A DNA stretch of 32,123 nt. It comes from Candidatus Rokuibacteriota bacterium. Lineage in GTDB: Bacteria > Methylomirabilota > Methylomirabilia > Rokubacteriales > CSP1-6. Location: NCBI GenBank assembly GCA_016188005.1, contig JACPIQ010000099.1:1-32123 (forward strand), read 5' to 3'. Under the pieces are notes generated by a model that was not told where the DNA came from, ran no database searches, and saw only the letters and a program-made list of their open reading frames with translations. The translations under genes were made by a program, and so were the position numbers. Of this stretch, positions 86-4,237 are shown piece by piece (within the stretch, counting starts at the first letter, position 1; the number at the start of each line of letters is the position of its first letter).

Positions 86-110
86 GGACCGGAGAAGGAA
101 AGGAGGGCGC

Positions 111-359
111 ATGATCGAGGAGAAGGTGATCGCGTCGTGGAAGTACAGGAAGGGCACGCTGGACCAGAAGACGGCGAGCCTCTGCTACCTGGCGGCCAAT
201 CTCGCGGCGGGCAACACCCACTGAGCCAAGCGCGACCTGGCAGGTGCCAGGGCCGCCGGGGCGACGGAGGACGAGGTGCGGGAGGCGATCAGTTTCGCCA
301 TCCGGGCCAATGCCGCCAAGACGCACGCCGACATCCTCAAGGTGTACGAGGCGCCATAG
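111..359 (+). CDS. AhpD/carboxymuconolactone-decarboxylase-like selenoprotein (UGA = Sec38)
   Basis: The frame starts at ATG 111 behind a strong AGGAGG-type site (101-106) and runs to TAG 359, giving 82 residues, with one in-frame TGA at 222-224 (codon 38). Before the TGA is a helix ending LAAGNTH; after it comes RAAGATEDEVREAI, the usual GAT-x-EE-x-xEA helix that follows the CxxC of AhpD/CMD proteins. Counting back from GAT, the TGA falls exactly on the second cysteine of that motif. The first cysteine is replaced by Asn35 and the usual downstream His by Asp; Cys25 is the only cysteine left as a possible partner. A SECIS-like hairpin follows. These proteins are small helical oligomers acting as peroxidase or disulfide relay partners; the substrate here is unknown. 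A standard annotation would miss this gene. Sec assignment is inference from frame, alignment and hairpin. Confidence 0.82.
236..251 (+). promoter_or_regulatory. SECIS-like hairpin of the AhpD-like selenoprotein
   Basis: CCTGGC (236-241) and GCCAGG (246-251) form a perfect 6-bp stem closing the loop AGGU (242-245). The loop begins 17 nt after the UGA. From memory, E. coli fdhF has the same 17-nt distance to an AGGUCU loop. The bacterial SECIS lies inside the coding sequence and binds SelB. Confidence 0.75.
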
Positions 360-381: not shown

Positions 382-696
382 ATGGCCGAGATCACTCTGA
401 CCTCCGCCTTCTCGACGGTGCCCGGGCCGGACCAGGAGGCGATCAGGCGGCTCCTGACCGAGACCATCGACCAGATCGCGCGCGACGACGGGTCATTCAC
501 GCGGGCGAAGGTCGTGTTCACCGAGTCGGACGAGCGCTGCGGGCTCACCGCGGAGCTGGACGGGGTCAAGAAGGAGGGCGTGCCGCTCCAGCTCGATCTC
601 GAGCAGCTCGAGGACGCCCAGACGGGCGCGGGGGCGCGGGCGCAGCTCAAGGAGGCGCTCCGGCTCTACTTCCGGCGGGTGATGGGCCGGGGATGA
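382..696 (+). CDS. Small conserved-looking protein of unknown function
   Basis: The protein has 104 residues and starts at ATG 382 behind AGGAG (371-375), 22 nt after the selenoprotein stop. It is acidic, with a single cysteine, and is predicted by eye to mix strands (AKVVFTESDERCGLTAELDG) with a C-terminal helix rich in Arg and Leu (ARAQLKEALRLYFRRV). I do not recognise the family. Its stop overlaps the start of the methyltransferase gene (ATGA, 693-696), implying translational coupling. An upstream in-frame ATG at 244 lies inside the selenoprotein gene and is not the likely start. Confidence 0.7.
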   Translation: MAEITLTSAFSTVPGPDQEAIRRLLTETIDQIARDDGSFTRAKVVFTESDERCGLTAELDGVKKEGVPLQLDLEQLEDAQTGAGARAQLKEALRLYFRRVMGRG

Positions 697-3191: not shown

Positions 3192-4237
3192 GAGCCATCA
3201 CGCTGCACGGAACGGGGGATGTGCGGGTGGAGTCGGTGCCGGATGCGCGCGTGGTGGACCCCACCGACGTGGTGGTGCGGATCACCACCAGCGCCATCTG
3301 CGGGTCGGATCTCCACCAGTACCACGGGCGGGTGCCGGGGCTGCCCAAGGGCGTGGTGCTGGGCCACGAGTTCATGGGCGTGGTGGAGGCGGTGGGGGGC
3401 GAGGTCCGGAAGGTGCGCAAGGGTGATCGCGTGATCGCCCCGTTCTCGATCTCCTGCGGTTTCTGCGACTGGTGCCGCATGCGCTTGCCGACCCAGTGCT
3501 CGACCACGGGACGGGCGGTGTTCGGTGGGCGCTTCGGCGCCCAGTACCCCGGCGGTCAGGCCGAGGCCATCCGCGTGCCCTTCGCCGACCACATGTGCGA
3601 GAAGGTGCCCGAGGGCATGGCCGACGAGGAGGCCTTCTTCCTCGGCGACATCCTCTCCACCGGCTACTGCTGCGCCGAGAACGCGGGCATCCGCCCCGGC
3701 GACACCGTGGCGATCTTCGGTGCCGGGCCCGTGGGGCTCTTCGCGCTCCAGTCGGCGCATCTCTTCGGCCCGAGCCGGGTCTTCGTGGTGGACCGCGTGG
3801 GCTACCGGCTCGACCTCGCCGAGGAGCTGGGGGGCATCCCGGTGAACCTCGACACGGGCGACCCGGGGGAGCAGCTGCGCGCGCTCACGGGCGGGCGCGG
3901 CCCCGACGCCGTGCTCGAGTGCGTGGGGCACGAGACCCCCTTCGCCCAGGCGATCCTCGCCGTGCGCGCGGGGGGCTCCGTCTCCTCCGTGGGCGTCTAC
4001 GTGGAGCCCTCCATCGGCTTCCCCGCCCGCGAGGCCTTCTTCAAGGACCTCTCGCTCAAGATGGGCATCTGCAACGCGCGCAACTACATCGTGCCACTGT
4101 TGCCGCTCATCCAGGCGGGCCGGCTCAAGCCCACCCGGATCATCACCCACACGATGCGGCTCGACGAGGCGCCCAGGGGTTACGCCATCTTCGACCGGAA
4201 GGAGGATCGCGCCATCAAGGTGATGCTCAAGCCCTGA
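3188..4237 (+). CDS. Zinc-dependent medium-chain alcohol/polyol dehydrogenase
   Basis: The protein has 349 residues and starts at ATG 3188, overlapping the ROK stop. Catalytic zinc ligands are Cys38 (ICGSD) and the GHE motif His60-Glu61. The structural zinc lobe has Cys90, Cys93, Cys96 and Cys104. The NAD(P)-binding glycine motif is GAGPVG (178-183). The short FGGRFGAQYPGGQAEAIRVP block is typical of glutathione-independent formaldehyde dehydrogenase or threonine/sorbitol dehydrogenase-like members. Coupling with a sugar kinase suggests oxidation of a sugar or polyol, but substrate is not readable from sequence. Confidence 0.88.
   Translation: MRAITLHGTGDVRVESVPDARVVDPTDVVVRITTSAICGSDLHQYHGRVPGLPKGVVLGHEFMGVVEAVGGEVRKVRKGDRVIAPFSISCGFCDWCRMRLPTQCSTTGRAVFGGRFGAQYPGGQAEAIRVPFADHMCEKVPEGMADEEAFFLGDILSTGYCCAENAGIRPGDTVAIFGAGPVGLFALQSAHLFGPSRVFVVDRVGYRLDLAEELGGIPVNLDTGDPGEQLRALTGGRGPDAVLECVGHETPFAQAILAVRAGGSVSSVGVYVEPSIGFPAREAFFKDLSLKMGICNARNYIVPLLPLIQAGRLKPTRIITHTMRLDEAPRGYAIFDRKEDRAIKVMLKP

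Follow-up and report, generated by a model that had tools for sequence, protein, structure and literature searches.

The locus and its distribution

The window, i.e. the whole stretch of 32,123 nucleotides that was analysed, is contig C99 of a 5.37-Mb Rokubacteria MAG (98% complete, 4.7% contamination). Near its 5′ end lies a gene of 82 codons with one in-frame TGA, followed by an orphan gene for 104 amino acids (Table 1). Translation of 111–359 gave MIEEKVIASWKYRKGTLDQKTASLCYLAANLAAGNTHUAKRDLAGARAAGATEDEVREAISFAIRANAAKTHADILKVYEAP (82 residues, U38), and the gene is termed NxxU gene in the following, after the motif N35-T-H-U38 of its product. In most loci the genes were arranged in the order gamma-glutamyltranspeptidase, NxxU gene, 104-aa orphan, HemK2-like methyltransferase, YdjC deacetylase and ROK kinase.

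Table 1 Features at the 5′ end of the window, with positions in nucleotides
Feature	Position	Strand	Basis and remarks
Ribosome-binding site (aaggaggg; AAGGAGGG)	100–107	+	5′ of ATG 111, read from sequence
Predicted AhpD/CMD-like selenoprotein gene, 82 codons	111–359	+	ATG 111, TGA 222–224, TAG 357–359; translation, Pfam CMD, orthologues
Cys25 codon	183–185	+	Cys in 38/38 of the NxxU clade; not conserved in CxxU paralogues
Asn35 codon AAC, aligned with the first CxxC/CxxU Cys	213–215	+	Asn 37/38, Thr 1/38; alignment to CxxU paralogues
Putative Sec38 codon UGA, place of the second Cys	222–224	+	TGA throughout: 38/38 distinct orthologues, 36/36 CxxU paralogues
Predicted bSECIS hairpin CCUGGC AGGU GCCAGG, loop 242–245	236–251	+	Fold; 6/6 pairs in 38/38; stem codons 43, 46 and 47 frozen
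104-aa orphan gene, 3′ of the predicted selenoprotein gene	382–696	+	No Pfam match; syntenic with or without the selenoprotein gene

The hosts of the NxxU gene are uncultured bacteria of soil and groundwater. All close relatives of the window gene in a public collection with one genome per species belonged to Candidatus Rokubacteria, and orthologues were collected at 32 loci of genome_contigs. A phylum-wide profile search recovered the gene from 40 of the 95 Methylomirabilota genomes, as a full-length copy in 39 and truncated in one; all 40 belong to a single family (f1), and each carries one in-frame TGA in the gene. Conservation counts given below refer to 38 distinct orthologous DNA sequences. 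Outside Methylomirabilota the search was performed with near-identity patterns in one genome collection, plasmids and viral contigs; no relative of the NxxU form was found on the plasmids, nor in the viral contigs including two alignments.

At G000:C51:57518 the same MAG contains a near-duplicate of these genes of the window (96% identity at the protein level), the NxxU protein of which is identical to that of GWC2_70_16. This copy suggests that the MAG mixes two strains. Positions 1–85 of the window, as well as 3258–3494 of locus L054, hold the end of a short Cys-rich zinc-finger gene (YgiT/MqsA-like by eye), which in the genus of the window sits between the transpeptidase and the NxxU gene.

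Codon 38 and selection on the reading frame

The first-pass annotation of this DNA had matched a UGA at codon 38 to the second Cys of the AhpD/CMD motif, and the comparison bore this out, with TGA in 38 of 38 orthologues and Cys in none. Homologues with Cys or Sec at position 38 and Asn at 35, which it had named as support, were found (UGA 38/38, Asn 37/38, Thr 1/38); homologues ending at residue 37 or with an unconserved position 38, named as contrary evidence, were not seen among the 38 orthologues. Substitution rates according to NG86 were determined on both sides of the UGA, giving a mean dN of 0.084 and dS of 0.858 for codons 3–37 and a mean dN of 0.057 and dS of 0.587 for codons 39–78. 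The ratio is equal (~0.10) in both parts, and the stretch past the UGA is therefore protein under selection. A Cys version of the NxxU gene was not found among the 95 Methylomirabilota genomes, and Cys at the place of Sec38 was seen solely in distant CMD relatives; the usual Sec/Cys pairing would thus have to be drawn from distant relatives only.

The predicted SECIS hairpin

A hairpin with a 6-bp stem and an AGGU loop 17 nt 3′ of the UGA, which had likewise been proposed from the sequence, was reproduced upon folding, with a G at the second loop position and minimum free energies from −12.2 kcal/mol (225–255) to −21.9 kcal/mol (222–262). Published limits for bSECIS elements are a stem of 4–16 bp, a loop of 3–9 nt, G in the first two loop positions, a spacing of 16–37 nt and an MFE ≤ −7.5 (PMC13188914), and the window hairpin lies within all of them. 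The Rfam scan of the window returned no match. In this GC-rich window, 4.4% of the TGA triplets precede a comparable hairpin, and among synonymous recodings of the peptide 25% gave a hairpin somewhere and 1.7% in the observed register (loose rules in both cases); the folding z-score is only −1.8. The hairpin, or its energy, is weak evidence for a selenoprotein when taken alone.

Its conservation, together with that of the TGA and the stem codons, goes far past chance. Pairing of the stem is intact in 38 of 38 NxxU sequences, and with one stem arm slid by 1–3 bases 18–64% of cells were still paired. Of 28 invariant degenerate codons exactly three showed single-codon usage, namely Leu43 (CTG), Ala46 (GCC) and Arg47 (AGG), all of which fall in the hairpin stem (1 in 3276). 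AGG, invariably used for Arg47, accounts for only ~4% of the Arg codons of the neighbouring and sel genes, and the loop-side codons GCA and GGT have a background below 3%, yet are dominant in the NxxU gene. The CxxU paralogues (36 distinct sequences) possess a different stem, CUUCGC/GCGAAG, in unchanged register; two of the six pairs are changed on both sides between the two stems and all still pair.

These data bear on the reading that the UGA is a true stop, leaving a peptide of 37 residues or a decaying gene. UGA normally terminates the neighbouring genes and a hairpin by itself is not rare in GC-rich DNA, but purifying selection is equal past the UGA, all orthologues share a common C-terminus followed by their own stop, the stem codons are frozen, and the match to Pfam CMD covers residues 12–68. 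A true stop is accordingly very improbable.

Selenocysteine decoding machinery

Genes for tRNA-Sec (69 bits), SelA and SelB (364 bits) are clustered on contig C4 of the window's own genome, selA (473 aa) being identified by sequence and position. The selD gene (348 bits) carries an in-frame TGA, as is the case for Sec-type SelD. Throughout the phylum, selB scored over the cut-off in 83 of 95 genomes and tRNA-Sec in 79 of 95. A selB match was obtained for 37 of the 40 carriers of the NxxU gene, while G077, G078 and G088 gave neither a selB nor a tRNA-Sec match. G088 is 100% complete and has NxxU and CxxU genes with TGA; the missing matches were taken as an assembly gap in this genome, with real loss as the alternative. 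Co-occurrence of gene and machinery was discarded as a test, because the Sec machinery is near-universal in Methylomirabilota and the comparison is uninformative in this phylum.

An altered genetic code or a suppressor might also have UGA 38 decoded as another residue, for instance Cys or Trp, with no selenium involved; readthrough would then yield an identical protein frame. TGA is, however, the ordinary stop of the neighbouring genes and terminates the NxxU gene itself in six orthologues, so that the frame is not explained by a code change; the frozen stem after codon 38 and the full Sec machinery, including the TGA-containing selD, also speak against such decoding, which is hardly conceivable. 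From sequence and conservation we infer that Sec is inserted, and that the window gene is very probably a genuine selenoprotein gene.

Family and fold of the NxxU protein

The AhpD/CMD assignment made in the first-pass annotation stands, the protein scoring 41.1 bits against Pfam CMD (PF02627) at a gathering cut-off of 23. The closest Sec-containing NCBIfam models were ArsM_AhpD_UU, GSU3128_fam (NF041047) and MduS, all of them far under cut-off. NF041047 (‘distant AhpD homolog’) gave the best-covering match (residues 2–76, E 1.6e-11), with 44.2 bits lying below the curated cut-off of 110. Like the window protein, members of this family are small single-domain AhpD/CMD proteins (~84 residues) with Sec occupying the second Cys position; their CxxU motif is replaced in the window gene and its orthologues by NxxU (37/38) or TxxU (1/38). 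NF041047 is also the best match of a CxxU paralogue from the same genome, which itself reaches only 50 bits. Unlike this paralogue (CTSUVPGR), the window protein has NTHUAKRD, with Asn for the first Cys, and belongs to a separate clade. Score cut-offs derived from CxxU forms leave genes such as this one unnamed.

In a maximum-likelihood tree all NxxU proteins formed one clade (96/95) beside a GSU3128-like CxxU clade (93/92), the branch joining the two (86/75) being not firm with few columns. PDB profile matches placed the protein in CMD. An AlphaFold2 model, based on the window protein aligned with its genome_contigs orthologues, showed a mean pLDDT of 88 and helices at 19–32, 36–48 and 53–80. 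Top Foldseek matches of the model were CMD/AhpD structures, i.e. TTHA0727 (prob 1.00), RclX and O27018, with probabilities near 1. E-values of the best matches ranged from 0.1 to 0.5 and none reached E ≤ 0.001, therefore the fold match supports, without proving, the CMD family. An AhpD/CMD helical fold of the window protein is thus supported by the model.

TTHA0727 of Thermus thermophilus (PDB 2cwq) is the best match by both sequence and fold. It has Ser at the first Cys position while the second Cys is present, and is described as lacking peroxidase activity, with unknown function (PMC3141380). Both proteins are devoid of the first Cys; TTHA0727 differs in having Cys rather than Sec and in being larger. 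AhpD of Mycobacterium tuberculosis shares the core helix hairpin with the window protein but is longer.

The N-T-H-U motif

The window motif is NTHU, and one orthologue has T-T-H-U. The loss of the first Cys to Asn35, the presence of Asp42 where AhpD has a conserved His (His137), and Cys25 as sole other thiol of the protein had all been read correctly from the sequence. The loss of this His is not special to the NxxU form, since a CxxU paralogue encoded in this genome has Arg instead. Of the relay Glu118, Cys130, His132, Cys133 and His137 described for M. tuberculosis AhpD (PMC3141380), only the equivalents of His132 and Cys133 are retained (H37 and U38); Glu118 is replaced by Ser23 (by residue offset only), Cys130 by Asn35 and His137 by Asp42. 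With two of five relay residues left, a peroxidase activity cannot be taken for granted.

The same genome has five more CMD/AhpD loci that carry an in-frame TGA, all of the CxxU type: CEYU (G000:C44:43689, L143), CFDU (C120:66581, L144), CTYU (C28:77518, L145), CEYU (C137:29283, L146) and CTSU (C63:86135, L003). Together with the window gene, the only one of these forms without the first Cys, they make up an expanded group of AhpD-type selenoproteins within a single genome. In AhpD-like selenoproteins Sec is normally accompanied by a resolving Cys; the NxxU clade has kept Sec and lost the partner.

The first-pass annotation had set the motif apart from the usual CxxU and UxxC arrangements, which agrees with published selenoprotein tables (PMC1088965, PMC2398784, PMC13188914), where the AhpD/CMD rows that were found are CxxU and none is NxxU. 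AhpD-like selenoproteins from marine metagenomes (COG2128 and pfam02627 forms) are CxxU with in-frame UGA and SECIS (PMC1088965, PMC2398784); they share Sec at the second motif position with the window protein, and none is NxxU. The string NxxU is likewise absent from the 2026 review (PMC13188914) and, in combination with ‘selenoprotein’, from the literature searched; the survey of Deng et al. 2026, outside this scope, may list the gene. The suggestion of a possible new variant therefore holds as far as these tables go, while loss of the first Cys as such has a Cys-form precedent in TTHA0727 (PMC3141380). The gene enlarges the AhpD-type selenoprotein set of Rokubacteria, members of a phylum recently reported to have a very large selenoproteome, with 63 selenoprotein genes in one MAG (Deng et al. 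2026, as cited in PMC13188914).

As a separate observation, a relative at L112 (G038:C330:6894–7076) reads U-L-P-U at the motif, both U positions being in-frame TGA codons, and is a possible double-Sec (UxxU) CMD protein.

Proposed chemistry

As part of the best explanation of these sequence data, N-T-H-U proteins would define a Sec-only subfamily of one Rokubacteria family. We favour, with moderate confidence, the reading that the gene encodes a UGA-decoded, Sec-only selenoprotein of the AhpD/CMD fold, which would reduce an oxidant and have its Sec restored by an external thiol. SelB and tRNA-Sec would read the hairpin after the UGA, and Sec would be inserted at the second-Cys position of AhpD. 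With Asn, or rarely Thr, in place of the first Cys, formation of the usual C-x-x-U selenenylsulfide is precluded. The selenolate of Sec38, near the start of modelled helix 36–48 (the second core helix) and beside His37, would attack peroxide or another oxidant, and the oxidised selenium would be restored by an outside thiol, either a small molecule or a protein, in the manner of one-cysteine peroxidases. The protein is likely to act as a peroxidase or reductase with a lone Sec that another thiol resolves. It is proposed more tentatively that this AhpD-fold family without partner Cys, occurring in Sec form only, employs a single-Sec mechanism, a chemistry undescribed for AhpD/CMD proteins. A non-thiol residue three positions before Sec is also found in the Sec peroxiredoxin TxxU (PMC13188914), which has a thioredoxin fold and belongs to an unrelated family, so that the likeness is one of chemistry only.

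Resolution of Sec38 within the protein or across an oligomer by Cys25, as a relocated cysteine replacing the lost first Cys, is the main competing reading and appears rather unlikely. Cys25 is invariant (38/38) in NxxU proteins, and CxxU paralogues, which retain the first Cys, mostly have Val or else another non-Cys residue there, which leaves room for an internal resolving role; in the model Cys25 sits in helix 19–32, just before the Sec helix. It is, on the other hand, located two residues past the position of AhpD Glu118 (by residue offset), and by helix periodicity may therefore face away.

Quite improbable is a role of Sec38 in binding or carrying a metal, metalloid or selenium species with no peroxide turnover. 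The AhpD proton relay is mostly missing (no equivalents of Glu118, Cys130 and His137) and among the NCBIfam matches are AhpD domains in fusion with arsenite methyltransferases, but none of the neighbours (gamma-glutamyltranspeptidase, orphan, HemK-like methyltransferase, YdjC deacetylase, ROK kinase) is metal-linked and there is no further conserved Cys cluster. Sec is kept by every member of the NxxU clade while the partner Cys is lost, and no Cys version was found, which makes selenium's own contribution directly testable in a protein of 82 residues.

The 104-aa orphan gene

The orphan holds its position across Rokubacteria with or without the selenoprotein gene, and its Cys53 is invariant, including all of the 16 loci compared that carry no selenoprotein gene. 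The orphan was considered as a dedicated supplier of the resolving Cys and rejected, since Cys53 is kept without the selenoprotein too; it is found both with and without the selenoprotein and is therefore no dedicated partner. In 13 loci of family f1 that are devoid of the NxxU gene, no Cys version or remnant was detected, and the 104-aa gene is retained, in nine of them directly after the transpeptidase. The unit of gain or loss is the whole 82-codon gene, which is another sign that the gene does not end at codon 37. At L128, short tandem repeats (ggcactaggcagtgcccgg) are located just 5′ of the 104-aa gene, where the selenoprotein gene is absent.
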